64,000 nucleotides of DNA. Origin: Petrosia ficiformis. Lineage: Eukaryota; Porifera; Demospongiae; Haplosclerida; Petrosiidae. Made by a program: the position numbers and the translations under genes. The notes under the pieces were generated by a model. That model had not been told where the DNA came from, did not search any database, and saw only the letters and a list, made by a program, of their open reading frames with translations. The stretch spans positions 4,822,501 through 4,886,500 of the forward strand of contig OX345637.1 of assembly GCA_947044365.1 (NCBI GenBank). The letters are read 5' to 3'. Positions 12,720 to 59,766 of the stretch are shown here, piece after piece. Numbering within the stretch: the stretch's first letter is position 1; each line of letters starts with the position of its first letter.

Positions 12720-14718
12720 AATAATGATATGATATAATCACAAGAAATCACATTATTAGTATGCTTACTACAGTATCGTTTACGAAATGACTGATACTGG
12801 AACTTGAAATAATGGCCAACATGTATTGATAATGACCAATGACCAACACAAATGACCAATCCGGTTCATCACTATCAATAATTACCATTTTATGATATGA
12901 AATTAATTAGAAAGTCCAGTAACTGGACATATGTACATGTACTACAGTTAGACAGACATCACACTTCTGTTATTGCCCATAATAATAATACATTGTATAA
13001 TTATAAGTAAAGAAACTTGATCAAGGAACACTTGATGCTTGAATCCAAAGTTAGTGATATGCATGATATCATGATATTTCCTGATGTTAACCACATGTGA
13101 ATGCCAGTCTCTTCCTACTTTAATTTACACGCAATCCGGGCCAATGGCTGAAATGACTGAAGTATGCAATTTCTTATATATCCAATGACTGAAGTATGCA
13201 ATTTCTAACATATTCACCTTGGAAAGTACATTCCATCATTACAATGTCTACAAGGAATCAAAAGCCACCTGATCGATATACCTATACTTCTTGCAATATT
13301 GTTACAATTGTGTCTGTTACTTATATCTCCATTGTATATCTAGATCTATAGTCTCATGGTGCATCATCTAGTCTTATTGTCTGATAACGTATATATTAAC
13401 CCTAGTTTTATAAGTTGCTGGCTATAAATATCAGATCAAGCAGTCAGTTAATTTATTATGAGTTTACTACTACAACATGCATAGCAAAATATATAGGTGG
13501 AGCAAGAAGTGATATGAGAGCTTAGAGATGTTGTCAAGGCCATTACCTCAATTACATTTGATTTCAATCAGTGTTTCGACAGCAATGACAAGATGAACTG
13601 TGTTTCCATGTATTTTTTTGTTACCAGAAGTCTTCTCAAGATTAGGAAACAGTAACCATGAGTTACAAAAATTGTTATAGGCTTATATATATAATATACG
13701 TATCAGTACCAAAAGGTTAGTTATTGCTCGTCCAGTGGTCCTATGAGTATCAGACTCCCTCACCTCAAGGATCTATCATCAAAGTGGACCCACGTGGCAA
13801 TCATGTCAATCATGTCAAGTCAGCCTCCGACACACCACTACCACACCCTGAAAATTAATAATAATAAGCAGTTAAGTATGGTGAAAGTTTGCCGCTCAAT
13901 TCATGGATTCATGACCTGGGCCGACTCAGGAGATCGAGACTGATCGTTTCGCGCCAAAATTTCCCTCCATATTGGTGGCAGACAGGTAGCTACTAGCTAG
14001 AGATTACTCAGATTAGCCAGTGACTGTGCTGTACTGTACTGTACAACTTTTTCTTTTGTGTGTATTGAGTCGTCTCTAAGATTTAGAGTAATAGATCAAT
14101 AATCGGACATACCTAATTTCGGACGTAGTTTTCTCCAAAACTGCAAGAGATATTTTGATGAAATTTGCATGATACAAAGCTCTTCTATAGCTCTATTCAC
14201 CATACAAAAAAAGGCTGAAATGTACTTATGTTTTTCATGCTACATTCAAAAACGTTCAGGTGGACGAATATCGCTATTTTCAGACGTTTTTATCATATTT
14301 CAGACTTCACCTATTTTTTACTGATATGTTCGAGATTTTGATGTCACATTTACAGACAACAAAGACCCACACATGGACTACAACTTTATAAAAATTGGGT
14401 AAGCTATTGTTTATACGAAGTAAACTAGCAGGCTGCAAACGCAAGTCTTTATAATGTATCATTTTTTCAGACACGGAATTTCTTATGTTGTGATTGGGTT
14501 TTAAACCTAAAATATCAAAAATGGAACGCTACAACCGATTTCCAGAGGGCAACAAGAAATCCACTGAAGAGAATCAGAAAAAGACTGAAACATGCATGCA
14601 CAACAGGTCTACCATAGCTGTTCACAAAAAAATGGAAGTGGTGGACAAACCTGAACACACAGCTACACCTACAAGATAATCAAATAATTATACAACCCAA
14701 AAATAATCAGAAGCAAAC
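12720..14718. other. Intergenic stretch, no gene recognised
   Basis: Short open frames at 13743-13943 (+) and 14494-14679 (+) resemble nothing I know and lack splice or repeat context. Paired CGGACATACC/TTTCGGACG-like phrases near 14105-14280 look repeat-like but no element end could be fixed. Confidence 0.4.
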
Positions 14719-17566
14719 TTATTTACAATCATCACACATCCAATCATCAGGAACAGTTGTGTCTTTAGGTATCCCTATACATTTGAAATGATACCAAGTC
14801 TCACATTGAACACATTCAACCATATCTGAATCGTACTGTTCTGGCATTCTACATGAGCAGAAAACTTTAACATAAAATATCTCAAGTTGACGATTTATTA
14901 AAGCTTTTCTTGATTTTTGAGGAAAGGGCTTTAGCTCAGAGCATTCCAAACAATTGAACAAATGACTACGCATTTCACTTTGCTCAAAATAAACTTCTTC
15001 TGGATTATTGCCAGCACATACTTCCACTGCAAAGGCTATTGAGAAAACCCCACAATCCTTAGTTCCTCTTTGTTGCTGAATGGGCAAGGCCTGGATTTCT
15101 AATGCTGAACATCTTGTTGGTAAACAATAAATATTAGCTATTTGAAGAGATGTTTCCAAGTTAATACTAGAGGACATCCTGGCACTGTCCATTAATTTCA
15201 CTACTGCAGTTTCATCAGAGCTAATGCATATCCAGTGGTTACCACCTACAACGGTTATCGAATCAACATTTGAAAAGACTAAAATATATTCATATACCTG
15301 TATGTAATATCTGTACTGAGAGCTTTCCTGGAGTAACTTTATGAAATGACAGCGTTTGACCTAACAATGAACACTGAAAGCCATCAACATGTTCATACTT
15401 TTGTGATAGTAGTTTCTGACATGCATTTATAATTGTATCAGGGAGCTCATGTCCAGAACAAATAGCTTCAATGTCTGTAAGAGACAGACGCAGACATTTC
15501 ATCCAACCTACATAGATACAGGTACAATATAACTATAATATGTATAGCTTGCATTTGTTTCATTTTACAATTTAAATAAGAATTTTAACCCCTGATTGAG
15601 GGTAGGGTAGGGATCCCCAATTTCTGGTTCCCAAGACAAGACTACTATCCACACAAACTAGTGCTACCATGTTTGCAATTTACAAACCAAAATACACACA
15701 AATTACATTACCTGTGGTCTCAGATAAAGGAGCAGTACTTTCATTCCTCTTTCGTCTAGCGTCTGGTTTATAAACTATTATGAATACACATTAAATATAC
15801 CTGTAGCCTCATGTAAAGGAGGAATACTTTCGTTCCTCTTTCCTCTAGCGACTGGTTTAGAAACTATTATGAATATACATTAAATATATACACATCAAAT
15901 TAAGTTATATATACCTGTGGTCTCATATAAAGGAGCAGTACGTTCATTCCTCTTTCCTCTAGTGACTGGTTTAAAAACTATTATGAACATTAAATACATA
16001 TACATGTACACATAACATGTTATACCTGTAGCCTCATATAAAGGAGGAATACTTTCGTTCCTCTTTCCTCTAGTAACTGATTTAGAAACTATTATGAACA
16101 TTAAATATATATACACATCAAATTAAGTTACATGTTATACCTGTAGCCTCATATAAAGGAGGAATACTTTCGTTCCTCTTTCCTCTAGTGACTGGTTTAG
16201 AAACTATCATAAATATACTTAAATATATATACACCTCAAATTAAGTTACATATACCTGTGGTCTCAGATAAAGGAGCAGTACTTTCATTCCTCTTTCCTC
16301 TAGTAACTGGTTTAGAAACTATTATGAACATTAAATATATATACACATCAAATTAAGTAACATGTTATACCTGTAGCCTCATATAAAGTAGGAATACTTT
16401 CGTTCCTCTTTCCTCTAGTGTCTGGTTTAGAAACTATCATAGATATACTTAAATATATATACACCTCAAATTAAGTTACATATACCTGTGGTCTCAGATA
16501 AAGGAGCAGTACTTTCATTCCTCTTTCCTCTAGTAACTGGTTTAGAAACTATTATGAACATTAAATATATATACACATCAAATTAAGTAACATGTTATAC
16601 CTGTAGCCTCATATAAAGTAGGAATACTTTCGTTCCTCTTTCCTCTAGTGTCTGGTTTAGAAACTATCATAGATATATTTAAATATATATACACCTCAAA
16701 TTAAGTTACATATACCTGTGGTCTCAGATAAAGGAGCAGTACTTTCATTCCTCTTTCCTCTAGTGTCTGGTTTATAAAATATTATGAATATACATTAAAT
16801 ATATAATTAAGTAACATGTTATACCTGTGGCCTCAGATAAAGGAGGAATACTTTCATTTCTCTTTCCTCTAGTAACTGGTTTAGAAACTATTATGAACAT
16901 TAAATATATATACACATCAAGTTAAGTAACATGTTATACCTGTAGCCACATATAAAGGAGGAATACTTTCGTTCCTCTTTCCTCTAGTGACTGGTTTAGA
17001 AACTATTATGAACATTAAATATATATACACATCAAAATAAGTAACATGTTATACCTGTAGCCTCATATAAAGGAGGAATACTTTCGTTCCTCTTTCCTCT
17101 AGTGTCTGGTTTAGAAACTATCATAGATATACTTAAATATATATACACCTCAAATTAAGTTACATATACCTGCGGTCTCAGATAAAGGAGCAGTACTTTC
17201 ATTCCTCTTTCCTCTAGTGTCTGGTTTATAAAATATTATGAATATACATTAAATATATAATTAAGTAACGTGTTATACCTGTGGCCTCAGATAAAGGAGG
17301 AATACTTTCATTCCTCTTTCCTCTAGTAACTGGTTTAGAAACTATTATGAACATGAAATATATATACACATCAAATTAAGTAACATGTTATACCTGTAGC
17401 CTCAGATAAAGGAGGAAAACTTTTGTTGCTTTTTCCTCTAGTGACTGGTTTAGAAACTATTATGAATATACATGTACACATCAAATTAAGTTACATGTTA
17501 TACCTGTAGCCTCATATAAAGGAGAAATACTTTCGTTCCTCTTTCCTCTAGTGACTGGTTTAGAAA
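14719..17566 (-). CDS. C48 (Ulp1-like) protease with PHD finger, preceded by a micro-exon array; 5' end not found
   Basis: Two C-terminal exons (15507-15298 and 15278-14719) encode a Ulp/SENP-type cysteine protease core. The expected catalytic positions are visible: His in GGNHWICIS, Asp in KLMDSARM, Gln and Cys in QQRGTKDCGVFS. A PHD finger follows (CSCRMPEQYDS, CVQCETWYHFKC, CDDC) at the very C-terminus. Such proteases remove SUMO/ubiquitin-like tags, and PHD fingers usually read histone tails. The exon starting at 15507 enters in phase 1, exactly the phase in which each of the 17 upstream 63-nt units ends, so the array could splice into this gene. The intron between the last two exons would be only 19 nt (15297-15279, GTATAT...TTTTAG); alternatively this is a pseudogene. 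The first exon and promoter were not recognised. A transposon-derived origin is possible (inference). Confidence 0.55.
15279..15297 (-). other. Candidate 19-nt intron in the C48/PHD gene
   Basis: Read on the minus strand it begins GTATAT and ends TTTTAG, with ACAG before and TC after. Removing it joins two frames that each carry C48 sequence. Left in, it gives a TGA on one side and a TAG on the other. Confidence 0.4.
15712..17566 (-). repeat. Array of 17 tandem 63-nt exon-like units
   Basis: Lower ends of the units: 15712, 15801, 15915, 16026, 16141, 16256, 16371, 16486, 16601, 16716, 16825, 16940, 17055, 17170, 17279, 17394 and 17504. Each is exactly 63 nt, mostly spaced 109-115 bp apart. 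On the minus strand each is preceded by AG and followed by GT (ACAG|GTAT), except units at 16716 and 17170 where the AG is AT. Every unit reads in phase 1-1 without stops as a 21-residue repeat around KPVTRGKRNESIPPLYEAT. A second version has TAPLSETT; the two types partly alternate. The separating DNA is AT-rich with stops. Confidence 0.8.
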
Positions 17567-18349
17567 CTATTATAATAACAAGAATAATAAAAAAAAATAT
17601 TTTCAACAAAAATTTCCAGATTGCAGAAATACTTGCGTAAGTTATATATATCACGCAATCATACAATCATATATTCATTATTTACAATTCATTCTTTTTC
17701 ACTTACAGATGATGTCTATTCTCTATTTCACTTACAGCACTGTCTGCAGTCCTACTTTCAGCCACTGTCAACCATTCAGTATTCCAATGCTTAATTAATT
17801 ATTATAAGACTGTATTTGCTTACAAGCGTTATTACTATGCTTATGATTCCAATACAAGTACTTTCTCCTTTTCAGCTTCCATGTTTCGAGTACACAAATG
17901 CATAAGTAATTCCACGTGGCTCGATTAATGAATTCACTTGAGATCAAATCTTTGTAGTTGTTGAGACTCTCTTCTTTCATAGTATCTGAGATCATCTAGA
18001 TACTTGTAGGCCAGAATTTTACTATGAATGCGATTGGAATAGTGCTAGAATCATCGTGATAGTGCAACAAACAAAAAAATGATTTGTCTGAAAAATAATA
18101 ATATGATGAAGATTTTGCCAGTTTTGCCACTCGCAGGTTCTCTACCTTAACAGCAATCTTTGGCCATCTAGATGTTGGTAGTCATAAAAACACTAGATAT
18201 GAATAGGTATGTGTGTATTAAAACCTATCTGTATATATTACCAGAGATTTCAGGTTATCATTTGCAATTGAAATTTATGGGCAGCCATTTTTTAGGTGCC
18301 ATCCATGCCTAGAGAGTACTACTGTACTCTCTGATATGTAGATCTGGAT
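17567..18349. other. Stretch upstream of the micro-exon array, no gene recognised
   Basis: This should hold any first exon of the minus-strand C48/PHD gene. An open minus-strand stretch (17995-17795) starts with ATG but its end does not offer a donor in the phase the array needs. I could not assign a start exon. Confidence 0.4.
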
Positions 18350-18807
18350 TAGGGTTGGGCAATAAATCAATATATCGCATACATTGCAATATTATTACAA
18401 TATGCAATAATCGTATCGCATTATTTGGTATGCCAATGTTATCGCAATGGCAAAATACTGTCTTACTGCAATTAAATAACAGTTATAATTATGCAATTGA
18501 AAAACACACTGACACTTAAGGCTGGTTCACAATATGACGCGAGGCCTTGCGTTGTGTGTGTTGAATTTTGAAAATGAGGTGCTTCTTTTAATTGCGTCAG
18601 ACACAACATAACGCAAGAATAGGATCTGATTCTATCTTTGCGTCAGCTGTATTGCGTTTGACCAATCAGTTTTCAGAATTGTATCACAACGCAACTGACG
18701 CAAAGCTATCATAGACAGTATCAATGAGTAGTTGCAATATTCCAATAACCACAAGTCACCTTTAGACAATAATTGCAAAACATAATCTTCAATATCACCC
18801 AACTCTA
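18350..18807. mobile_element. hAT-type non-autonomous element with 8-bp TSD
   Basis: Termini TAGGGTTGGGCAATA and, inverted, TAGAGTTGGGTGATATTG. The flanks carry a perfect 8-bp duplication ATCTGGAT (18342-18349 and 18808-18815). The interior includes a GGCTGGTTCACA segment and several GACGCAA words that may be a second, decayed insertion. No transposase frame is seen. Confidence 0.75.
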
Positions 18808-18821
18808 ATCTGGATAGTAGA

Positions 18822-19850
18822 CTATATGATTATAGTTAACTCACTCTTTTTATTGCTTAATTTAGCTGATCTCTTTTGCAGGCTTTTCCTTTCTTTTTCC
18901 TTTTTCTCTTTCTCCTTTCTTTCGAGTGCCTCAGCAATGTCCATACTGGTCATGACAAGACCACAGCTTTTAATTCGCTTAATTGATGGTTTAGATGTAC
19001 ATACTTGTTTTGGAGTTACCAGGTACTTGCTAACTGATGTTGATGTGGGTTCGAGCACGAGTGCAGTCTGAGGACTTTTGTCAGCAAAATAATCATCATC
19101 CGCTTTGTCATAGTCATGTAAAGATCGAGAACAGTCACCAGGAGTGTAATCTTCATCAGAGTTAGAAGATTTAACAGGTGTGCTGGTGTAACGTCGTCCT
19201 GCACTATATAAAGCAATATGAGCAAGCCCTGTTTGCTGACAAAGTGTCTCTGGCTTGAAGCTTTTATAGCTTTGATCTGGAATATCAATGGCGAATCTGA
19301 TGAAAGGGCAAATTCCAGTATTTCTAAATGAAGAGATAATATTTTTGCCAGTCATAGCAGCTAACCATGCAGCACTGAAAAGTTCTGAAAAATCATAAAC
19401 TGTCACAACTCTACCAGGATGTTTTGAATAAAAGTCATGACAAACTTGTCGCCAATGAATTTTCAATGGCGAGTAACAACCCTTATCTAAAGGCTGAGTG
19501 ATATGAGTACTGTGCGGGGGCAATACAAATAAGATAACCTTTTCAGTTGCGGCTTGTTTTATTAAATCAGGGCAGTAATGTGTGGAGTGTCCATCCATTA
19601 ACAGGATAATAGGTCTTATTTTTGGAGCATAAGTTAAGAAATGGTTAAAGAACCATTTTGTAAACAAGCTACGATTCATCCATCCATTGGCAGATGTTCC
19701 ATATATAGTTCCAGGCACCTCTCCAGTGCAAAGTTCTTTATTAAACGTTTCTCTGTTGAAAATGACAAATGGAGGTATTGCATAGCCGGCTGCATTTGCA
19801 CACCCAAGTATAGTAATTTGGCTTTTAGAATCCCCAGTTATAGAGCTAGA
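18822..19850 (-). pseudogene. pogo/Tigger-like DDE transposase, 5'-truncated
   Basis: The open frame encodes the C-terminal half of a DDE_1-type transposase. IILLMDGHSTHY carries the second catalytic Asp and LPPHSTHITQPLDKGCYSPLK the third. A charged Lys/Glu-rich tail ends the protein. The frame extends upstream of the first Met (19718) through GCANAAGYAIPPFVIF to about 19850 and then stops matching. The N-terminal CENP-B-like DNA-binding domain and first catalytic Asp are absent. The break coincides with the start of the Tc1-like fragment on the other strand. Confidence 0.75.
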
Positions 19851-20597
19851 AATGAGACAGGTGTTGTTGCATCAACATCAACAGTTAAGCGCAGGCTGAT
19901 TACAGCAGGGTTAAATGGAAGAATTGCCAGGAGGAAGCCCTTACTTCTGCCACGCCACAAAATTACTCATTTAGAGTGGGCTAAGGCTCATGCACAGTGG
20001 ACTGATGATATGTGGAAGAGAGTAGTATGGTCAGATGAGTCCAAATTCAACATTTTTAAGAGTGATGGAAGAACATATATTAGAAGAAGAAAATCAGAAG
20101 AGTTTAATGAGGATTGTGTAGTAGGTACGGTAAAACATGGTGGAGGTAGTGTAATGGTATGGGGTTGTATTTGTGGAGATCAAACAGGTATGCTTTTGAG
20201 GGTTGACACAACAATGAATGCACACCGATATCTACAAGTTTTAGAAGATGGTATGATTCCATCAGCTTGGGCTGCTCGAGGGTTGGACTTCATTTTTATG
20301 CATGACAATGCTCCATGTCATCGAGCCAATATTGTATCAGAGTGGTTAAGTGAACAAGATATTGAAGTTACAGCATGGCCTCCTCAATCACCTGATTTGA
20401 ACCCAATCAAGAACTTATGGGACTACATTGAGCGTCAAGTAGATAAATTACCATCAACCACAAAAGAAGATCTTTGGAAAAACCTGAAGAGTGTTTGGGA
20501 TGTCATTCCATCAGCAGTTATAGAAAACCTTGTTTGTTCAATGCCAAGAAGAGTTACTGAAGTGATAAAAGCAAAGGGGTGTCATACAAAATACTAG
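19845..20597 (+). pseudogene. Tc1-like transposase, 5'-truncated, third catalytic residue changed
   Basis: Encodes the second helix-turn-helix region (STVKRRLITAGLNGRIARR) and the DDE core of a Tc1 (DD34E) transposase. WSDESKF carries D1, MHDNAPCHRA D2, and SPDLNPIKNLWDYIE the third motif. That third position is normally Glu in NPIENLW; here it is Lys, which should abolish catalysis. The first DNA-binding helix is missing. The frame is otherwise open to its stop at 20597, but no terminal inverted repeats were identified. It is joined back to back with the pogo-like fragment. Confidence 0.8.
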
Positions 20598-20916
20598 AGA
20601 ATTTATACCTATTTAACTATAATAAATTATTATACATTTTATATACATCACATATTCTTTTCCTTCATAGCTAGCTACAAGTCTCACACACACTATAACA
20701 AAAATTATTATTATAAATAACACTCCAGTCTAATAACCAGAATTAATAATATTTAGGCATCCATCTATGGTAAATTTATATTTCTGTATCTCTGTAGCAC
20801 TTACCTAACAATCCAGCAATATTTTCTCACTTCTTTTTTTAAAAAACACTGTGGTAGCACACGTGATTTTGTGGTGACTCTGTGAAACCTTACAACTTTA
20901 TAAATTAATAAGTATA

Positions 20917-24800: not shown

Positions 24801-27800
24801 ATTATCAATCGACTTGGAGTTAGTGATAATTGATTTCAAAATCTCAGCCGATTCCCAGCCCTAATATATACATGTATATGTAATGAGGCCAACTTATAGA
24901 CCTCATCATTAGACTCTAAGTGTTAACTCATCTTACAGACCTCATAATTGTACTCATATGTGTTAACTAGATCTCATCATCTGTACCTTATACCTTTTTG
25001 TTAGACAGTGCCTTACTTTTGTTAGTTGTTCTTTTGTTTGCTGTATTCTATTTAAGTTGTGTAATTCTTAGTCATGTGGTTGTTGAATACAGTTCTAAAC
25101 TCTCTTTAACTCTGTCAATAATATTCCGTTATACGTGGTGAGACCACCACTACATTGGCGCAGTGGGTAGGATCCTGACTTCTTCTATTTACTTCTGATC
25201 AGCTACTAGCAAAGTGAACTATGGCAGGGCGACCGGTAGTCCTACCAGAGCCTTTCACGGGAGAATGTCGCAGCAGTCAACACGTGGGATGAGGCAGCCA
25301 AACTCCTCTGGCTGAGAGCAAGATTAACTAAAAGAGCACAGACGGCATATCAGAATTTTTCGGAAGAAGCCAAGGCTACTTATGGAGAATCAAAGAAAGC
25401 ATTAAAGGAAAGGTTTGAACCAAAGTGTAGACGTGAACTTTACCAAACGGAGTTTTGAAATCGGAGAAAACAGAGAACAGAAGGCTGGGCTGATTATGCT
25501 GAAGATCTAAAGATTTTGATAGATAAAGCTTTTCCAGACTTACAAGAAGAGGCTAGAGATTTACTAGCACTGAGCCATTTTCTAGGACAGATTGATGATC
25601 ATCAGGTTGCTTTTAGTGTCAAGCAATCTCGCCCAAAGAACCTTGACGAAGCAGTGGCAGCTATATACCTTGGAAATGGAATCATATGCTCAACCAAAAT
25701 CAACTCGATTAGTTTCACAGGTGGAAGAAGGGGAGGAACTCATATCAGTAGCAGTTACGAATAGAGAGAACTCTTCTGATTCCCTTCTGCTTATGATGAA
25801 ACAGATGATGCAGAGAATGGAGAAAATTGAAGGAGATTTGTCCTCTACAGAGCGAACCTCAGACAGTCGAAGACGAACTCCACCCAGTCGGGAGCAATGG
25901 AGCTACACACAGCCAGTTATCTGCAGGAAATGTGGACAGTCAGGTCACTATGCCAGAGGGTGTGCAACTCGAAGATCAACAAGCCAGCAGCAGGGAAACG
26001 AGATACCCTTCCAGCCGTGAGTCAAGCTGGCAAGGTGTTTGAGCCAATCTTTGGAATCCAAAGTTTTATTGCAGTTCAATGCGACTTGATATAATATCCA
26101 AACAACAAAGTATAAAACTATATATTATGATAACTACAACCTATTTATATACAAAAAATCAAAGAAAGTTCTAGAAGGGCCATGTGAGTGGTGTGACATC
26201 TAGTAACATCTAGTGTTAAACCACAAGTATTGAGCAATGCTTGCAGCAAAGGCAAGCCTGTGGCATACAATAAGTACTAAAATAATAAATTGCTTACAAG
26301 TGAATAAATAAACAATTAAACATACCGCCGGCCTAAGACCGATGGTCTTACAAAACATAGAGAAGAATAACTTATCATATTAAATGAGTTCATATAGTTT
26401 CATTTTCAGATAGCAATACGGCAATCTTATGGACAGGTCGACGATACAAACCCTTGGATGTCTTTACATCAACGACACGCACGACACCATCCCTTCCTGG
26501 ATGAGTTTTGACAATCCTGGCTAATGGCCATCGAGTAGGAACCATGCCGTCTTCAAATAGAATCACTACATCGCCAACTGAGATATTTCGGGAAGGACGA
26601 GTCCATTTGTAACCTTTCTGCAGAGTTATCAAGTATTCCAATGACCATCTCTTCCAAAAATGTTTCACGACCGTTTGGCACAAATGCCAACGTCGTATTA
26701 GAGAGAGTGGTTGGGGTGATACAGCCGTGTCAGGCAACGTCATTAGCGGTCGCCCAATGAGAAAGTGGCCTGGAGTAAGCACTTCTATCCCATCACTATC
26801 GTTGTTAATAGAGACCAAGGGACGGCTGTTTAGACATGCCTCAATTTGGGTTAGAACGGTATACATCTCCTCAAATGTCAATGTCACTTCTCCAACAATT
26901 CTTCTCAGGTGCCTTTTGAAACTTTTGACAGCAGCTTCCCAGATCCCACCAAAATGAGGGGAGTGTTCTGGAATGAAAATCCACTCGATGTTGTTGAAAG
27001 TGCAAAATTCTGAAATATCTTTCCGTGTCTTCTGGTCATTCAAGTGTTGAATTAGTTCCTTGATTTCACGATTGGCACCAACAAAATTAGTACCATGGTC
27101 GCTCCACATTAGAGATGGGTAGCCACGACGAGCAATGAATCTTCGTAAGCAAGATATGAATGCATCTGATGTGAGATCAGTTACCAACTCCAGGTGTATG
27201 GCTTTGACGCTTAGTGACACAAAAACAGATACGTAAGATTTGATGATCACTGGCTTACGTACGTGTCCATATTTGATATAGATTGGGCCTGCATAGTCGA
27301 CTCCGGTTCTCTCAAATACTGTCCCGGGAGTTAACCGTTCAAGTGGCAACTGTCCAAGTATTGGTGGTGTAGGCTTTGCTGACAGACGTCGGCAGGTGAT
27401 ACACTGACGAATAATAGACCGAGCAATGGTTCTGATTCGAATGATGTGGAACTTCTGACCAAGTGAGGAAATTACTAAGGTTGGTCCGGCATGTAAAAGT
27501 CGCTTGTGTTCAGAGATGATTATCAACTTCACAATAGGATGACTTCCATGAAGTATAATAGGGTGTTTCTTGGACGATGATAGATGTCCAAGTCTCTGCC
27601 TGCCTCCTACTCTAATTAGACCACTCGAGTCAACGAATGGAGAGAGTGGTAAAAGACAATTCCCTCTTGGTACAGGTTGGTTCGTCTTTAGGAGGTTGAT
27701 TACAGATGAAAACTGCTCAGCTTGAATGGCAGAGAAGATGTGGGCTTCTGCTTGGTACAACTCGGAAGTCGTCAAGTAATTAGTGAAATGTCTCTCCCTT

Positions 27801-30800
27801 TTGCAACGACAATTGGCAATGAATCGCATGCTCCATGCCACTATCCTTCGAAGACGTTCAAATATAGAGTAGTGATCAGGTGCTATAATCAATACTGGTT
27901 TCACTTGTAGGGTCATGGTTACGTGGCACACTTCAACGGCAGATTCAGGGGTGGAACACTCAAACAATAACTTTGGTTGTTCAGGCCATTCACTGGGTAC
28001 ATTCTTCAGCCAAGTGGGACCATTCCACCATAATGGATGATTAATGAGCTCAGAGGGATAAAGTCCACGTGATGCACAATCGGCAGGGTTTTCTGAACCG
28101 GCAATATGTCTCCAGCAACCTGGAGGGATTACATCAACAATAGCAGCAACTTGGTTACCTACAAATGTCTTGAATCTTCTGGGGTTGCCAGATAACCAAC
28201 TGAGTACTATTGTACTGTCCGTCCAGGCATGAACATGACTCACTGACATCTCAAACACTCCTCTAACATGATTCAACAAACGAGACAATAACAAAGCTCC
28301 ACACAATTCCAGGCGTGGTATTGTGAGTTTCTTTATTGGGGAGACTTTGGTCTTGGAGGTAACAAGTGAAGTGTGAACATTTCCTTCCATATCAATCATC
28401 CTCAAATATACAACTGCAGCATATGCCTCCTCGGATGCATCAGAGAAATCGTGCAATTGCTTGGAAACTATGGTCACTTCTTTAGGATAATAACATCGAG
28501 GGAACGTCTTCTCTACTAGTTGAGGAAGTTCACATCTCCACTTTTCCCAAGTGTTTTGTATGCTCAATGGCACAGGGTCGTCCCAATCAATTTTTCGTTC
28601 CCACAGTCTCTGAAACAATATCTTCACTTTTATAACTGCTGGTGAGAACCAGCCCAGGACATCAAAGATTCTGGCTATGTCAGAAATCAAATTACGCTTG
28701 GTAATGTTCTTGACAGGTTGTATCTGTGAAATGGTGACATGAAATTGGTCAGCATCAGTTTCCCATTGTAGACCAAGGGTTTTGGTGGATCCTTTAACTT
28801 CAGCAATTGAATGTGTGTCTCGCACGTCTCTCAGCTCTGGTTTTATGTGTTGCAGAACAGCTGGGTCATTGGAGTTCCATTTGTGTAGCAGGAATCCTCC
28901 TCTGGAGAACAATTGGTGTAACTCCTTCTGAAGTTTGATGGCTGTCTCAACATTATCAGCTCCGGTCAGACCATCATCTACATAGAACGATTCTTCAACT
29001 GCCGTGGCAGCGAGGGGAAATTCCTTGGCTAGGTTCATAGCATTCTGTTTGACACACATGTTTGCTATGAATGAAGAGGCTGCCACACCAAATGTGACTC
29101 TAGTCATCCTATAATCTCGAACAGTATCAGTGGGTTTCGGTCTCCAGACAAATCGGTGTAGGTCACGATCAGATTCTACAAGCTCTACAGCTCGATACAT
29201 TTTACTGACGTCAGTTGTGACGGCAATTCTGTTGAAACGAAATCTGAGAAGTACGTCGACTAGTGGTGGATGAACAGTTGGTCCGATCAATAGTTGGTCA
29301 TTGAGTGATACTCTGGATTCAGTCTTTGCTGAAGCATCGAACACGGCTCGCACCTTTGTAGTCGTGCTCGATTCCTTATGTACAACATGCAAAGGAAGGT
29401 AGAATACTTCAGCTTCAGGTTTCATCAAGTCTTTATTGGGAACAATTTCCGCATGTCCTAGATCAAGGTATTCTTGCATGACTGCCGTAAATTGTTGGTG
29501 TTGATTTTTCCTCTTGAGAGACTGTTCCAAATACATGAGTCTTCTCACTGCTTGCGATCGAGATTCACCAAGAGGTTCAACACTGGTCTGCTTCGGGAGT
29601 GATACAACAAATCGACCTTCAGTATTCTGGGAATGATTTAGCTTGAAGTGTTTCACTACTTCTTGTTCTTCCAAGGACCATGAGGTTTCACTTCCTGGTT
29701 GTTCTTCGATTTCCCAAAACTTCCTCAAAGCGTCATCATTTGAACTGATTACTGCTGAAACATGATGAGAGGTAACACAGAATTGGGAATCAATCGAGCT
29801 GGTTCTTCCTGAGAGGAGCCAACCAAAAATAGTCTCAAATGCAGTGGGTGATCCTGGTGGACCTGACCGCCTGCCATGCAGTATCGTATCAGCGTAAACA
29901 TCGACACCCAATAAAAGATCAACCTTTCCAGGGACGCCAAATTCTGGGTCAGCCAATGGGATATTAGATAAGTGAGTCCAGCTCGATTTCTGAGGTACAG
30001 GGTGGATTGGGAGATCACACGTAACTTGTGGGACAATAATGGCCATGAGTGATAAATGGTTCTCGGGAGAATGGACAGGTGAGACATTGATTGTAGCAAC
30101 AGACCTTGAGGGAGAATGATTTGTCAGTCCAGCAATTCCTGAGATAGTAACTTGATGTCGAGATCGAGGTAAACTGAGACTATGAGCCAAACGCTCAGAC
30201 ACAAATGAGGCAGATGATGCGGAGTCAAGCAAACCACGCACCTTCACCTTGGATCCATCAGGAGCGTTAATGAATGCTCGAAACGTCATGAGTAAAGTGT
30301 CAGGAATGATTCCAGTTGCAGTATTACTCGACACGGTTAATGGCTGTGGCGGATTACTGGATGATACATGGGGATCCACATGCAAAAGCGTATGATGTTT
30401 TTTCGGGCAATTTCGACAGTGATGAGATGATTTGCAATCCCTTGCGATATGACCTGGCTTGAGGCAATTAATACAGAGCTTATTGTTCTTCACAAATGCA
30501 AGTTTCTCAAGGTGAGGAAGGTCCTTGAACTTGAGGCAATGATACAATGGATGTATCTCAGTTTTGCAAACGACACAACGGTTGTCCGATGAGTTGGTAC
30601 TAGCAGCGAATGACAGAACGGACTTCTTGTAGTGGTTGTCAGTCTTGTGTACTCGTTTGGACACTGTGGATGATTCAGAGGCTCTGGCACGAAGATCAAT
30701 GAATTCCAACAATTGCTGGTACTGTGGCACTTCAACAGCATCGTGGGTGTGTTTTTGCCACTCAAACATTGTGTCAGGATCTAATTTTAGTTGTATAAGT

Positions 30801-33800
30801 GAGGTGATGAACTGGCTCAATGGTTCACAAGTAGCTACATCCAGAGCACGCAGGTGTTGTTGAAGAGTATCATGGAACCGACGAAGTTCTTTTCCACTAC
30901 CTTCCTTCAATGGAGAGATCTCTGTAATAATCCTGACATGACTTTGATGGATGAGTCGTGGTCTATCGTACCTTGACTTGAGGCATTCAACAGCTTTAGC
31001 GTAGTGTTCACTAGTTCCGGATAGACCTTCAATCACATTCCTGGCCGATCCTTCCTTTAGAGCATTCTGCAAATAAACAAATCTTTCGGCGTCAGTGAGA
31101 CTGGAATTACTGTCGATCGAGATGGTAAATTGTTCCCAGAAGTGAGTCCAGTTCAGGATGTTGCCATCGAATGTAGGTGCTTCAAGCTTCGGAACCTTGA
31201 GTCCCTTGGCTTCTGTGGAGGATGAGAGGGCAGCAATGTTATGAGCAGTATCACAAGGATTGAGCAGCTTCTTGATTTTGTGACAACAATCAAACTGAAT
31301 CTGTTTTATTTCTGAGTATAGACGCTGTAGTTCATCTTCCTCTTCCAACTCGAGGCTGGACAAATCATTGTAGCACTGAAAGATCTGCTCCTTGAGGCTT
31401 GATAACTCTTCCTCGTGTGATTGGATTAATGCTAGATCGTCTGTTTCAGATGGTAAATGTTCAATAGCAGTGCTTGTGGTGTTTAGAGTTTCTTTCAAGT
31501 GGCGCAATTTCCGTGATAGAATCTTGCGCTCTTCCAATACGGTAGGAGTTCCAAGAGTAGCTAATAGTGTTTCAATACGAACGGTAAGAGCATCAACATC
31601 GTCATCATGCTTGTCCATTGTGGCTTGTTCAGCTGTTAGAGTGTCAGCATCACTTTCATCGATCGCAGCGATGATATCAAAGTGTTGAGTCTTGAATTCA
31701 CTGTCTAACGCATTTAGTCTTCTCGATCAAGCATCTCTTCTACCTCCGTCAGGCGATTATTGAGTCTGGTTATGGATGCACGAACTACACCTCTTTTTCT
31801 ACGTAGTGCTGAGATGTCACTCATCTTGACAATGGTAAATAACAGATACAATAAAGATAGTTTATAACGTTCCAAGATCAGCTGTACGATAACGAGTATT
31901 CAAAGTATCCGGTTCGGCGGACCAATAATGTTTGAGCCAATCTTTGGAATCCAAAGTTTTATTGCAGTTCAATGCGACTTGATATAATATCCAAACAACA
32001 AAGTATAAAACTATATATTATGATAACTACAACCTATTTATATACAAAAAATCAAAGAAAGTTCTAGAAGGGCCATGTGAGTGGTGTGACATCTAGTAAC
32101 ATCTAGTGTTAAACCACAAATATTGAGCAATGCTTGCAGCAAAGGCAAGCCTGTGGCATACAATAAGTACTAAAATAATAAATTGCTTACAAGTGAATAA
32201 ATGAACAATTAAACACAAGGGTTGTCTACAAAAGACTCAAACATGTATACCAGTATCTCCTATTACTTCAAATACTACTTACAAGGTTGCTGCAACTATC
32301 CATGGTTCTTTAGTTTCTTTTACTCTCGATACAGGGGCAGCTGTTACTTTAATTCGTAAGGATATTTGGGACTCAGTGAAGTCTACAGATCACTGTTTAG
32401 AGATGTGGAATGGACAAAGTCTTATTGGAGTTGAAGGAACACCTCTGCAAGTTCATGGGTACACAAAAACAACTATCCAGTTAGCAGGGGAGCAGTTCCA
32501 CGTGAGAGTGATTGTTGTTGACTCTCTCACACCGGAAGCTATATTGGGTATGGACTTTCTTGAAGCTAACAACTGTAGTAGCGATATTGGGAAAAAGCAA
32601 CTACTATTCCCTAAGTTAAAATTGTCCATCCCCTTGAAGGATGGAGCTTCATCAGGTGTCGCCCACATTGGAGTAACACTCAATACATCATTGCACATCC
32701 CCGCTATGAGTGAAATTGAAGTCATGGCAAAGATAAATGGTGTCAGTAACACTGGGACTTGGCTGCTGGAAGAAAAAGATTCCAGAAAACTTCCAGTAAG
32801 AGTAGCGCGTGCTTTAGTCTGTCCTAATTCGAACAATGTTCCTGTTCGTCTCCTGAATGTCGAATCAACATCAGTCACTGTGTATAAGAACACACAAATA
32901 GCTACTATGGAGCAAATTGGGGAAGGAATTGATGAACATACGATCAATATATCTACTATCGAATCTCATAAATTACTAGAGGAGAAAAAGCAAATGCTGT
33001 GGAGTATAGTTGAACGATGCGGCAAAGATCTTAGTGAGGAGCAGAGAAGGGCCTTTTTTCACTTATTAATTACCTATGCCGATGTATTTGCCATGTCTAA
33101 AATGGATGTAGGTCGAACAGGCAAACTTATACATTCAATATTTACTGGAAATGCTGCACCAGTTAGACAATCTACAAGACAAATTCCAGTACACAGAAGA
33201 GATGAAGTACAGAAAATGCTGAAAGATATGCTTCGTGATGACATCATAGAACCATCAAACAGTCCATGGGCATCGCCAATTGTTCTTGTCCGGAAAAAAG
33301 ATGGAAGTGTTAGGATGTGCATTGATTATCGAAAATTAAATGCTATTACTCGGAAAGATGCTTTCCCCCTACCCCGCATTGATGATACCTTGGATATTTT
33401 ATCAGGATCCAAATGGTTTAGTACACTAGATTTGATTAGTGGATATTGGCAGGTAGAAGTTGCCAAAGAAGATCGAGACAAGACAGCATTCTGCACGCAA
33501 GAGGGGCTTTTTGAGTTTAAAGTTATGCCTTTCGGATTATGTAATGCTCCAGCAACTTTTCAAAGATTGATGAACTTGGTCTTGGCTGGTTTACAATGGT
33601 CCAGTTGCCTAGTATACCTAGATGATATCGTCATAGTAGGCAGTACCTTTGAGGAACACATGGAGAGAAGTAAGGCAGTATTAGAAAGATTAAGAAAAGC
33701 AGGGTTAAAGTTACAACCGTCGAAGTGCAGATTCTTCCAACAAGAGGTCCAGTATTTAGGTCATGTTGTCTCTAAACATGGAATTTCTACCGATCCATCA

Positions 33801-36800
33801 AAAATAGAGAAGGTAATACAGTGGCCTATTCCGTGTTCCAAGAAAGAGGTTCAACAGTTTCTGGGATTTGCTGGTTATTACAGGAGATTTATCAGAGATT
33901 TTTCAACCACTGCCAGACCTTTACACAAGCTGGCTGAGCGATCCTGTTCATTCAATTGGACAGAAGAGTGTGAACAGTCTTTCAATCAGCTAAGACTAAG
34001 CCTCACATCAGCTCCTGTTTTAGCATTTCCTGATTTCAGTAAGACTTTTACACTAGACACTGATGCTAGTAGTACTGGAATTGGAGCAGTCCTATCCCAA
34101 GTACATGACGATGGAAGTGAGAGAGTTATTGCTTATGCAAGCCGATTACTCAGTAAGTCTGAACGAAGTTACTGTGTCACCAGACGAGAACTCTTAGCTG
34201 TTGTCCATTTTTTACACTACTTTCATCCTTACCTTTTAGGTAAAGGATTTGTGTTAAGGACTGATCATGGGTCGCTTACATGGCTAACAAATTTTCGAGA
34301 ACCTGAAGGGCAGTTAGCACGTTGGTTGGAAAGACTACAAGAGTATGACTTCAGAGTTGTTCACAGACGGGGTAAGAAGCACACAAATGCTGATGTACTA
34401 TCTCGACTGCCTTGTCGACAATGTGGACGGGAGAATCATGACAGTACCGAAATTGAGTTAGGTGTATCAGATGAAATCGTGGCTGCAATTCAGGTGATTG
34501 GTAACCGAGATGCCAAGGAGTTACTCCAGTTTCAACTAAATGACCCTGTAGTAGGACCAATACTGAGAGCAAAGCAAATAGGTGAGAAACCCACAGATAA
34601 TGCAGTAAAACAGAATCCCAAAGGACGTAGGTTACAACAAATATGGGAACAGTTAGTACTTAAGAATGGACTGTTATTCCGGAAGTTTGAAAGTCAGGAT
34701 GGAACATCATCCTATTTACAGTGGGTGGTCCCCAGTAGTTTACAGAAAGAGATTTTGGATGAACTACATGGTGGAACACAGAGTGGGCACCTCAGAGAGG
34801 AAAAGACTCTCAGTCGTCTTAAGGAAAGATTCTACTGGCCAGGTCACTGGAATGATGTTAGAAACTGGTGTAACACATGTGCTACATGTGCCACTAGAAA
34901 ATCTGTAGGAGCAAAGAATAGAGCACCCTTACAAACTATTAGGGCAGGGTACCCAATGCAAGTGGTTGCCGTTGACATCCTTGGTCCTTTGCCAGAAAGT
35001 GATGGAGGTAACAGTTACATACTTGTAGCCGGTGACTATTTCACTAGATGGATGGAAGCTTATGCTATCCGAAACCAAGAAGCAAAAACTGTTGCAGATA
35101 AATTGGTTAATGAACTATTTTGTCGCTTTTCATCCCCCGAGCAATTACATTCTGATCAAGGGAGACAATTCGAGTCGGAGTTACTGAAGGAAGTATGTAA
35201 GCTGCTGAATATTCACAAGACAAGGACTACACCATACCATCCACAGAGTGACGGACTAGTAGAGCGATTTAATCGTACCTTACTTCACATGCTAGCTACA
35301 TCTGTTAAGGATCATCCATTTGATTGGGAAATGCAGTTGCCAAAGGTCTGTATGGCATACAATACAAGCATTCAATCATCTACTGGGTATTCTCCATTCT
35401 TCCTCATGTTTGGCCGTAAAGCAAGGATACCAATTGATCTTATGTATGGATTCCACTACCAAAGGGAAGCGGAACCAAATGAATATGTAGCTGACTTGGA
35501 AAAGACTATGTCTTCAGCTTACGGAATTATGAGAGATAACATGAATGTACAACATGAACGACAGAAAGAGTATTATAACCGCAAAGTGTATGGTCAACCA
35601 TACAACATAGGAGATCGGGTCTGGTTACATTCACCTGTGATAACTCCAGGAAAATCAAAGAAATTCCATCATCCTTGGACTGGCCCTTATATTGTCATTA
35701 AGAAGCTGTCAGATACTACCTATCGTATTCAACATCATGACAAAAAGAACAAACGACTGGTAGTCCATTTTGATAGATTAAAACTGTGCCATCCTGACAC
35801 TCGTTTTTCTGAGGGAATAAACAGATCTAACACACACATAACAGCTCAACCAGCACAAACGTCCAGCATTGGTGAGAATTTGGAGCTAGTCGATGACTAT
35901 CCTGATGAGTTACCTACCCGACGTTATCCCATACGCACCAGGCACCCACCAATTCGGTTTCAAGAGGATTTCTCATTTTGACAAGGAATCCGGGACGTAT
36001 TCTTTCAAAGGAGGGAGTGATGTAATGAGGCCAACTTATAGACCTCATCATTAGACTCTAAGTGTTAACTCATCTTACAGACCTCATAATTGTACTCATA
36101 CATGTATGTGTTAACTAGATCTCATCATCTGTACCTTATACCTTTTTGTTAGACAGTGCCTTACTTTTGTTAGTTGTTCTTTTGTTTGCTGTATTCTATT
36201 TAAGTTGTGTAATTCTTAGTCATGTGGTTGTTGAATACAGTTCTAAACTCTCTTTAACTCTGTCAATAATATTCCGTTATACGTGGTGAGACCACCACTA
36301 CATATACAATGTATACACAATATGTGACTAAATTGTGTGTGTGAGTGTTACAACCTACACACTAAGTCCTACTAGTATTTTGATTAGAAGCACAGTGTTA
36401 ATATCCAGGCTTAAATTAGTTAGAAAATAGTTCAATCACCTGGATGTGGATGAAATGAAATGGGTGGAGCTAAAATTGGCAGTCGTGGCAGAAAGCTTAG
36501 AGCCAGCTTGAAGTTGTAGCAGCCACTACTTCAATTGTACTTCATTTCAAGCTGTGATTTAATAGACATAGGCTTCAAGCAAGATGAGCTGTGTTTCACA
36601 TCACCACATCCCTGATAGGTGTACATATATAAACAGAAGGTGACATGTGAATTTAATTATATTCACGTTGTGATAATTTCTATCTTGTAACTTTCACAAA
36701 TGAATTTGCTAGTTCAACTATATATGATTACGGCTTCTGCTGTGCTTATGGGGTTCTGAAGCTACAATGTACACTGTGTGTAATAATGAGTATGATTCAG

Positions 36801-54729: not shown

Positions 54730-55345
54730 CCTCTTGAGGTTATGATATGTCTCTGTCTGTAGTTGATAGTGAAGTGGAAGGAATAGGTGTGTGTCCATTC
54801 TTACGAGAATGGGTCTCGAAGACTTGTAAACATTTCCCTCTTCTCATTTGTTTAGCTGAAAAAACAGAGAAAAGCACATTGAATAAATCAACTATGGCAG
54901 ACATTCATTTAGAAAATTTGTTGAGGGGGGGGGAGGCAATGTACAAGTGTGCTGTGTTTATTGGCATACTAACTTCAGTGGGGTATGAATAAACACTGCC
55001 ACTGTATGCTATAAATGTAATTCAAGAGCTCATAATGAAATGTTGTCATGTAATCAGTTATGAACTGAGTTACTAAACTATTAATTATTACATGTACATG
55101 TATGTCTATGGGAAACGATAATTGAAATGCTGATAATATGAAAAGCACTGCATTTATGATAAAACTGATATTTGAATTAGCGATACACAGACAAAACAGA
55201 ATGTTAATTAAACATAAATTATTGTATAGTCGATAAGCAGATTTTGATTGAACACAATAATTATATAAGATAAGTTAATGATACATTAGCAGGCACGAGA
55301 TAATTAGAAACACAGGAAAACTGAAAAATCAGGAATCTGTCAAAC
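54730..55345. other. Intergenic stretch, one unrecognised ORF
   Basis: An 81-codon + frame (54747-54992) starts with ATG but resembles nothing I know. A run of G residues lies near 54926. No other signal. Confidence 0.35.
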
Positions 55346-56504
55346 TGAGGACCTTCTAATATCTAGTCAGGCGTCAAACTCAGAACCTTCAGATATGTAG
55401 TCAGGTAGTTGAACTCAGCACCTTCTGATATCTAGTCAGGCGTTGAACTCAGCACCTTCCGATATCTAGTCAGGCAGTTGAACTCAGCACCTTCTGATAT
55501 CTAGTCAGGTAGTTGAACTCAGCACCTTCTGATATCTAGTCAGGCAGTTGAACTCAGCACCTTCTGATATCTAGTCAGGTAGTTGAACTCAGCACCTTCT
55601 GATATCTAGTCAGGTAGTTGAACTCAGCACCTTCCGATATCTTGTCAGGTAGTTGAGCACAGGACCTTCTGATATGTAGTCAGGCAGTTGAACTCAGCAC
55701 CTTCTGATATGTAGTCAGGCAGTTGAACTCAGCACCTTCTGATATGTAGTCAGGCAGTTGAACTCAGCACCTTCTGATATCTAGTCAGGCAGTTGCACTC
55801 AGCACCTTCTGATATCTAGTCACGCGTTGAGCTCAGGACGTTCTGATATCTAGTCAGGTAGTTGAACTCAGCACCTTCTGATATCTAGTCACGCGTTGAA
55901 CTCAGGACCTTCTGATATCTAGTCAGGTAGTTGAACTCAGCACCTTCTGATATCTAGTTAGACAGTTGAACTCAGCACCTTCTGATATCTAGTCAGGCAT
56001 TGAACTCAGGACCTTCTTATATCTAGTTGGACAGTTGAACTCAGAACCTCCAATATCTAGTCAGTCAGCACCTTCTGATATCTAGTCAGGCGTTGAACTC
56101 AGGACCTTCTGATATCTAGTCAGGTAGTTGAACTCAGGACCTTCTAATATCTAGTCAGGTGTTGAGCTCAGGACCTTCTGATATCTAGTCAGGCATTGAG
56201 CTCAGAGCCTTCTGATATCTAGTCAGGTAGTTGAACTCAGGACCTTCTGATATCTAGTCAGTCAGCACCTTCTGATATTTAGTCAGACAGTTGAACTCAG
56301 AACCTCCGATATCTAGTACTTCTGATATCTAGTCAGACAATTGAACTCGGGACCTTCTAATATCTAGTCAGACAGTTGAACTCAGGACCTTCTGATATCT
56401 AGTCAGACAGTTGAACTCAGCACCTTCTGATATCTAGTCAGACAGTTGAACTCAGGACCTTCTAATATCTACTCAGACAGTTGAACTTGGGACCTTCTGA
56501 TATC
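55346..56504 (+). repeat. 35-bp minisatellite, roughly 33 units
   Basis: The unit is close to TCTGATATCTAGTCAGGCAG plus TTGAACTCAGCACCT. Variants alternate GCACC/GGACC and GGCAG/GGTAG/GACAG, and some units are 34 bp with GGCGTTGAA. Confidence 0.9.
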
Positions 56505-56950
56505 AGTTTTCCTTTGTATCTAATTCTCTCATGCTTGCTAACATCTCTCAAAAGCCTTATACTAATTAAGTTTATCTCATTACATTATTTGATTATATGG
56601 CTACTAATATCATTACTACATCACATACACCTGTTATTCCAGCATACAAATACAGGTATGTATAATTATACCTCTTCCTGTACAGAATAATGAATGGATT
56701 GAGTTGAAATAGTGTAATTATCCAAATCAAACTGATATTCTCAGATCCAGTTCACTTATATAGTGTGGTTACCATAGTGATTGAACCCTAGTTATGCGTA
56801 CTGGTGAATTTAAAACTATGAATATATAATGAGTTGAGTTTCAACTCAACGTGATCCTGCTTTAGTTAGAGATGTAAATCAGAGGCAAGTTTAACAGTAC
56901 AATGTACATGATGCATAATTCTAAGTGACAGTTACATAATGAATCATCAA

Positions 56951-57659
56951 TGAGCTCAATGTGGTTACTGTGCTCGATGTGGTCACTGTGCTCAATGTGC
57001 TCAATGTGCTCAATGTGCTCAATGTGCTCAATGTACTCAATGTGGTTACTGTGCTCGATGTGGTCACTGTGCTCAATGTGCTCAATGTGCTCAATGTACT
57101 CAATGTGGTTACTGTGCTCGATGTGGTCACTGTGCTCAATGTGCTCAATGTGCTCAATGTGCTCAATGTGCTCAATGTGCTCAATGTACTCAATGTGGTT
57201 ACTGTGCTCGATGTGGTCACTGTGCTCAATGTGCTCAATGTGCTCAATGTACTCAATGTGGTTACTGTGCTCGATGTGGTCACTGTACTCAATGTGCTCA
57301 ATGTGCTCAATGTGCTCAATGTGCTCAATGTGGTTACTGTGCTCGATGTGGTCACTGTGCTCAATGTGCTCAATGTGCTCAATGTGCTCAATGTGGTCAC
57401 TGTGCTCATGTACTCAATGTCCTCAATGTGCTCATGTACTCAATGTGCTCAATGTGGTTACTGTGCTCGATGTGGTCACTGTGCTCAATGTGCTCAATGT
57501 GCTCAATGTGCTCAATGTGCTCAATGTGCTCAATGTGCTCAATGTACTCAATGTGCTCAATGTGGTCACTGTGCTCATGTACTCAATGTCCTCAATGTGC
57601 TCATGTACTCAATGTGCTCAATGTGGTCACTGTGCTCATGTGCTCAATGTGCTCAATGT
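56951..57659 (+). repeat. 9-bp minisatellite (TGCTCAATG) with higher-order units
   Basis: Runs of TGCTCAATG broken by GTGGTTACTGTGCTCGATG, which recurs at 56961, 57042, 57105, 57195, 57258 and 57330. The spacings (81, 63, 90, 63, 72) are all multiples of 9. Long open frames on both strands follow from the period of nine and are not taken as genes. Confidence 0.9.
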
Positions 57660-57729
57660 AATTTAATGTCCTCAATGTGTCTAACTAATGTAATTTTTGT
57701 TGCCCATAGAGTATTTAACATTATAAAGG

Positions 57730-59309: not shown

Positions 59310-59766
59310 TTATATGTAATAATAATGTATTAATAATGTAATAATAATGTATTAATAATGTATTAATAATGTATTAATAATGTATTAATAATGTATTAAT
59401 AATGTAATAATAATGTATTAATAATGTATTAATAATGTATTAATAATGTATTAATAATGTATTAATAATGTATTAATAATGTAATAATAATGTATTAATA
59501 ATGTATTAATAATGTATTAATAATGTATTAATAATGTATTAATAATGTATTAATAATGTATTAATAATGTATTAAAAATAATGTATTAATAATATATTAA
59601 TAATGTATTAATAATGTATTAATAATGTAATAATAATGTATTAATAATGTATTAATAATGTATTAATAATGTATTAATAATGTATTAATAATGTATTAAT
59701 AATGTATTAATAATGTATTAATAATGTATTAATAATGTATTAATAATGTATTAATAATGTATTAAT
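59310..59766 (+). repeat. 11-bp satellite (TAATAATGTAT)
   Basis: About 40 units of TAATAATGTAT with occasional variant TAATAATGTAA. Confidence 0.92.

Follow-up and report, generated by a model that had tools for sequence, protein, structure and literature searches.

Within the 64,000-nt stretch of the Petrosia ficiformis genome analysed here (the window), the minus strand carries the 3′ part of a DNA transposon in which a transposase exon is followed by an array of micro-exons, a protease and a PHD finger. The features of the locus, in window positions, are as follows.

14084..19849, minus strand: 3′ part of a DNA transposon assigned to the pogo type; BLASTN alignments to the copies L069, L070, L071 and L073 stop at 14083-14100
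18845..19849, minus strand: truncated transposase exon with a DDE_1 domain (Pfam DDE_1, E 7.1e-23)
15712..17566, minus strand: micro-exon array of 17 symmetric units, each 63 nt long (51 nt if the inner acceptor is used)
17566-17504, 17456-17394, 17341-17279, 17232-17170, 17117-17055, 17002-16940, minus strand: units 1-6
16887-16825, 16778-16716, 16663-16601, 16548-16486, 16433-16371, 16318-16256, minus strand: units 7-12
16203-16141, 16088-16026, 15977-15915, 15863-15801, 15774-15712, minus strand: units 13-17
15298..15507, minus strand: first protease exon, 210 nt, phase 1 in and out
15246..15297, minus strand: 52-nt intron between the protease exons, equal in length to the commonest array spacer
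14722..15245, minus strand: second protease exon, then the PHD finger; stop at 14721-14719
14084..14472, minus strand: 3′ terminal inverted repeat with the end ..ACTC-TA; 391 aligned columns, 72% identity to the inverted 5′ end of L069

Elsewhere in the window lie a BEL/Pao-type retrotransposon frame (1778 aa, minus strand, 26390-31726), a Gypsy-type retrotransposon frame (1258 aa, plus strand, 32205-35981), a 9-bp repeat of about 82 copies that is open in several frames (56947-57679) and further tandem arrays at 55343-56504 and 59314-59766.

The micro-exon array and its gene

The preliminary description had reported 17 tandem units, each exactly 63 nt long and open in phase 1-1 (the first codon is preceded by two bases, the last followed by one). 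All 17 were recovered on the minus strand between 17566 and 15712, with the spacing of 89-115 bp that it had given. A donor GT follows 17 of 17 units and an acceptor AG directly precedes 15 of 17, AT standing in its place at units 4 and 8. The spacers measure 46-52 bp except for the final one of 26 bp. Since a second acceptor AG, 12 nt within the unit, is kept in all 17, a 51-nt exon, likewise in frame, is equally possible. An ordinary intron is probably longer than the 26-bp spacer, so that use of all 17 units as 63-nt exons within a single transcript is unlikely. Tandem Repeats Finder scores of 2415 and 2809 indicate that the array did not arise by chance, and a 454-bp higher-order repeat, corresponding to four units, lies within it. 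Directly upstream of the array, about 60 bp (window 17618-17680) recur at no fewer than 33 other places in the genome (59-68 bp, 87-92% identity), perhaps as the end of a small transposon inside the first intron.

The array had been described as feeding a protease/PHD gene. Exon 15507-15298 does enter in the phase of the array, phase 1, and the protease and PHD finger follow in phase; the gene is that of a transposon rather than of the host, its frame starting in the DDE_1 exon. This transposase exon ends AAAAAGA/GTGAGT in phase 1 (the phase being read off the corresponding exon end of L069). When the window was spliced in silico, the 17 units and both protease/PHD exons formed one frame of 601 residues. 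The same phase recurs in related families (described below; W denotes the family of the window): in L069, B, C, E and F the transposase exon runs up to a phase-1 donor, and in W, A, B, C, D and F the protease exon starts at a phase-1 acceptor, the best-consensus site being taken by eye where there were several candidates. All intron borders that could be checked are in phase 1, so that the frame would survive if a unit were gained, lost or skipped.

The 69-residue product of the first protease exon has 46 genome matches at E ≤ 0.001. In a pairing count covering 96 of 150 protease matches (54 were left out), 32 of the 96 had a DDE_1 match upstream on the same strand within 9 kb, with 29 of 80 DDE_1 matches used, against 1 on the opposite strand and 1 with DDE_1 downstream. 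Locus L068 holds a single F-type unit and has a transposase immediately upstream.

A spliced query of 467 nt, made up of three micro-exons and the protease exons, was searched against the genome for retrocopies and matched only places broken at introns; neither a transcript nor a protein spanning a junction was found. In the protein database the second protease exon had 3 matches, the transposase had 444 among 7998 scored candidates, and the spliced 601-aa product had 3, which are 30-39% identical; none of these 3 belongs to the family of the window and none extends across the array. One transposase relative, the public-contig protein P0055, has a frame that by eye continues into two or three micro-exon units of another family; it was the sole relative flagged by a simple tail scan among the 120 transposase matches listed.

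The window protein matches PHD with 35.9 bits (Pfam cut-off 24), all 11 members of an alignment of the protease/PHD region (A1) match PHD, and the nearest solved chains in the Protein Data Bank are PHF2, EBS and PHF8; a protease chain is absent from the 60 Protein Data Bank matches listed. For Peptidase_C48 the window protein scores 16.1 bits, under the Pfam cut-off of 20.7. Seven of the 11 members of A1 match C48 at E ≤ 0.1 (best 5.8e-5), and two longer relatives exceed the cut-off (P0124, 24.7 bits; P0126, 28 bits). D19, Q58 and C64 are invariant in the alignment and H3 nearly so; we take this His-Asp-Gln-Cys set to be the active-site residues of CE-clan (Ulp1-like) proteases. A related protease is also found on proteins with YqaJ (P0126) and with a just-subthreshold SWIM match (P0124), and on P0125, a stretch of which, by eye, is presumably GPY/F-like, as in Ginger1. 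Self-cleavage sites for the protease were considered and dropped, there being no sign of them by eye. Mimicry of histone H3 by the units was likewise dropped, although ARTK occurs in some family C units, because PHD fingers require a free N terminus.

The transposon and its copies

The most complete copy of the element, L069 (C2:8.37 Mb), spans 6751 bp between TA dinucleotides. It ends TAGAGT..ACTCTA and has inverted repeats of its own of about 390 nt (71%). Read at the copy ends, TA-GAGT..ACTC-TA is present in L069 and ACTC-TA at the 3′ end of the window copy, L070, L071 and L073. The L069 transposase exon matches HTH_psq with 39.3 bits (cut-off 20.4; 5.3e-10) and DDE_1 with 80.3 bits (cut-off 22; 1.7e-22); HTH_Tnp_Tc5 reaches 15.3 bits, under its cut-off of 22.2. 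In the predicted L069 protein a DDxD triad, picked by motif, places the predicted catalytic residues at D156, D263 and D299, with 35 residues between the last two (DD35D). TA, the target site in the pogo superfamily, thus also stands at the 3′ end of the window element. By its HTH_psq and DDE_1 domains, DD35D motif, TA site and inverted ends, all sequence characters, the element classifies as pogo-type.

The window copy lacks its 5′ half, and L069 extends about 1.4 kb further in the 5′ direction. A Tc1-like transposase (DDE_3, HTH_Tnp_Tc3_2) on the plus strand at window 19850-20600 abuts the truncated element at about 19850. In L069, protease exon 1 contains an 8-nt insertion relative to the window (gene-oriented position ~6720), possibly the footprint of another transposon. 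Owing to these two lesions neither copy holds a whole gene. Relatives of the element were absent from viral contigs and prokaryote genome contigs, and no plasmid carrying the 3′ end of the element was found.

Searched at the DNA level, the 191-Mb genome yielded the array at five further places and a short piece at a sixth, and at the array-bearing places the flanking DNA matches along with the array. The six counted copies of family W hold 17, 13, 10, 7, 6 and 4 units. The window copy and L069 are about 97% alike, yet carry 17 and 13 units, respectively. The first unit has an identical exon sequence in the window, L069, L072 and L073, and the last unit is identical in the window and L069; the middle units turn over between copies, and in L070 a three-unit block is repeated. 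The seventh copy, L015 (C1:38386319-38389505), is decayed and internally deleted and retains roughly one and a half units. The unit was thus seen in seven places, all of them copies of the pogo-type transposon (40 of 208 candidates scored). The statement that unit length is fixed while the spacers vary also holds across copies: 54 of the 57 family W exons measure 63 nt (two fragment matches having been removed from a set of 59), whereas 26 of 51 introns depart from the commonest length.

Related families and selection on the units

Eight related families in the genome have symmetric micro-exons before the protease, so that micro-exons occur in all nine families, W included, whose protease-upstream region was inspected in detail.

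Family A: two units, 90 nt
Family B: 12 units, mostly 84 nt
Family C: 24 units, mostly 69/72 nt, two loci
Family D: 13 units, 69/72 nt
Family F: 14 units, 72/69 nt, three loci
Family G: 4 units, 66 nt
L057: two clear units, 96 nt
L050: three units, partly decayed, one of 78 nt

A transposase was seen upstream in seven of the nine (W, A, B, C, D, F and G), and the transposases of the five families compared share 48-66% identity. Across the 124 units of six counted families (W included), AG is present in 116 and GT in 116, and 113 are open and a multiple of three in length. In a DNA comparison of one unit from each of the nine families, 34 of 36 pairs gave a z no better than 4, and the other two gave 4.3 and 4.6. 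When four families were compared for traces of their own transposase exon tail and first intron, the units of B and F carried them (z 22 and 45); the exon tail was not seen in units of W and C. Given unit DNA that is unlike between families, and the exon tails in B and F, we read the sequences as indicating that each family amplified its micro-exon separately, and the units of B and F as having arisen through tandem duplication across the exon-intron border.

Family C also includes a locus (L045) in which 3 of 9 main-array units carry an in-frame stop and a further four, decayed, are found upstream of the transposase rather than in the linker. At L079/L046 (C1:8193200-8201181) a family C transposon apparently sits within a family F micro-exon array, dividing it in two. 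A 105-bp repeat (7.9 copies, 100% match) lies between two family A transposase copies at L074 1807-2633 (C7).

The unit peptides have a motif in common. With one unit per family (family G being represented by its commonest unit), T-R-x-K/R occurs in 6 of 9 families, where shuffled peptides would give 0.37, and TR in 7 of 9, where they would give 1.9, two families having no TR in the unit used; TR reaches 8 of 8 when a rarer family G unit is used and L050 is excluded. The motif was picked after inspection and the families are not fully independent, and P-values serve here as a guide only.

Substitution rates were estimated from parsimony counts on 96 of the 124 units, as exon and intron changes per site. 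The 28 units left out had an odd length or a missing intron, and include all 4 of family G; an L071 unit without a measured intron carries a stop. Rates for all intron sites and for the core intron are given in that order.

Family W: exon 1.32, intron 1.62 / 1.72, dN/dS 0.97
Family B: exon 0.40, intron 0.61 / 0.73, dN/dS 0.83
Family C: exon 0.40, intron 0.63 / 0.62, dN/dS 1.68
Family D: exon 0.18, intron 0.09 / 0.11, dN/dS 0.57 (few changes)
Family F: exon 0.10, intron 0.05 / 0.04, dN/dS 1.06 (few changes)

The trees behind these counts are rough because units exchange with one another. The preliminary description had made it a test of its exon-array reading whether substitutions in the units are rarer and more synonymous than those of the spacers. 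The outcome was mixed and mostly negative: family W exons change at about 0.8 times the rate of the spacers with a dN/dS of 0.97, and in D and F, on few changes, the order is reversed, exons changing faster per site than introns. The identity of the unit peptide within an array is hardly constrained.

Length changes behave differently between exons and introns. Length variants are multiples of three in 15 of 21 cases in exons versus 8 of 52 in introns (Fisher 8e-6), or 13 of 19 versus 7 of 40 when only distinct sequences are counted (2e-4). Families B, C, D and F account for this frame-keeping signal, which consists partly of AAG or ATG triplet slips; the three exon length variants of family W, in older copies, are all frameshifts. 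Stops are also scarce: 2 are seen among 117 non-synonymous changes where 8.2 would be expected (P 0.012); stop-bearing units of whole-codon length number 4 of 23 in C and 1 of 54 in W. With a between-unit dN/dS near 1, and exons that are the faster in D and F, it is the frame that is kept, not the peptide.

A proposed variable linker and its alternatives

The DNA itself shows the transposon, the order of its parts, the phases, the varying unit numbers and the micro-exons before the protease in nine families. These observations support a model, which we consider probable, in which the array serves a single transposon gene as its variable linker. That gene would run from a pogo-type transposase (HTH_psq, DDE_1, DD35D) through a phase 1-1 micro-exon array to an Ulp1-like protease and a PHD finger. 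Unequal exchange or slippage in the DNA could add and remove units consisting of an exon and its intron, and splicing could skip them, in either case safely for the frame, and each family would have amplified its own micro-exon. The units would be spliced into one long protein, in which the repeats may form a flexible, basic, multivalent tether between transposase and protease/PHD, perhaps for chromatin or DNA. More tentatively, and with the odds against it, a lineage of pogo-type transposons may repeatedly re-invent a copy-number-tunable array between transposase and protease/PHD, in which unit number, set by DNA exchange and exon skipping, tunes the tether and through it the choice of target or the activity.

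The closest alternative shares this gene layout and differs on the function of the array, so that our confidence in the two overlaps; we place it only a little short of even. It holds that the units are real exons in a functionless array: tandem duplication would be frequent in short AT-rich introns, phase-1 introns and a loose linker would permit the extras, duplicates would be tolerated and only frame-breaking units removed. A between-unit dN/dS of about 1, exon rates of about 0.8 those of the spacers in W and above those of the introns in D and F, the 17 and 13 units of copies that are about 97% alike, and the multi-unit repeat of 454 bp all fit such a ratchet. What it explains less readily is the presence of micro-exons in nine of nine inspected families, with T-R-x-K/R in six of the nine, on DNA that is unrelated. 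In the choice between a neutral pile-up of harmless units and a selected array, the neutral process is at least as likely.

It is also conceivable, though improbable, that the repeats act untranslated, as DNA or RNA, for instance as enhancers, as splicing decoys or as sites to which the transposase binds. Short DNA repeat arrays are common in transposon ends, RNA evidence for the exons was not found, and purifying selection on the peptide between units was not seen, all of which would suit such a role. Yet length changes keep the frame, the phases match on both sides, stops are few, families without DNA likeness have a peptide motif in common, and the array lies in mid-gene, away from the ends.

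The preliminary description had left a choice between an exon array and a satellite that had taken up an exon together with its splice sites. The exon array is well supported by phase, splice dinucleotides, steady length, the frame-keeping length changes of the related families and the arrays that these families have of their own; the satellite is very improbable in spite of the tandem homogenised units with higher-order repeats, because seven of the seven unit places are copies of the pogo-type transposon (among the 40 of 208 candidates scored) and unrelated arrays precede the same protease exon in related families.

For the proposed variable, spliced-in linker of the transposon gene, parallels can be sought among transposons and among exon arrays. 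With the pogo superfamily (IS630-Tc1-mariner group), as outlined in the available text of PMC7386202 and PMC7325037, the element has in common an HTH, a DDE_1 domain, a DDxD triad and inverted ends. It differs in that the gene here runs on through a micro-exon array into the protease and PHD finger, in an element of 6.75 kb. The terms PHD, Ulp and intron have no occurrence in the main texts of these two papers; the element described here adds an Ulp1-like protease and a PHD finger to a pogo-type transposase. Ginger1 DNA transposons have a C-terminal Ulp1 protease on the transposase, with a PHD finger in Ginger1-9_HM (PMC2836005). Their transposase is Gypsy-integrase-like, with an H2C2 zinc finger and GPY/F, and an exon array is not mentioned in the available part of that article. 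Membership of Ginger1 was rejected, the transposase exon here matching DDE_1 and not rve or H2C2. In the literature searched we recognised no description of an exon array in a transposon.

Arrays of symmetric exons are raw material for exon shuffling, and good series are rare. Here a single genome offers several copies and nine families, with arrays that differ in age, size and sequence at one defined part of a gene, and with such a series rates of unit gain and loss become directly measurable. The same holds for the way in which tandem duplication gives rise to introns and exons (B and F) and for the tolerance of the spliceosome for strings of tiny exons. The nearest such series is that of the Tetrahymena LRR genes, with tandem 90-bp symmetric exons in one phase, proposed unequal crossing over and independent waves of expansion (PMC6564038). 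In the available text of that paper, the exons encode an LRR domain in phase 2, the introns are ~230-260 bp and the genes are not those of transposons. An array of this 90-bp LRR type was rejected for the sponge, where the phase is 1, the short basic peptides are not LRR by eye and exon length varies, the two units of family A measuring 90 nt. The sponge arrays differ from those of Tetrahymena in belonging to transposon genes, in their phase 1, and in combining exons of 63-96 nt with introns of mostly 34-66 nt.
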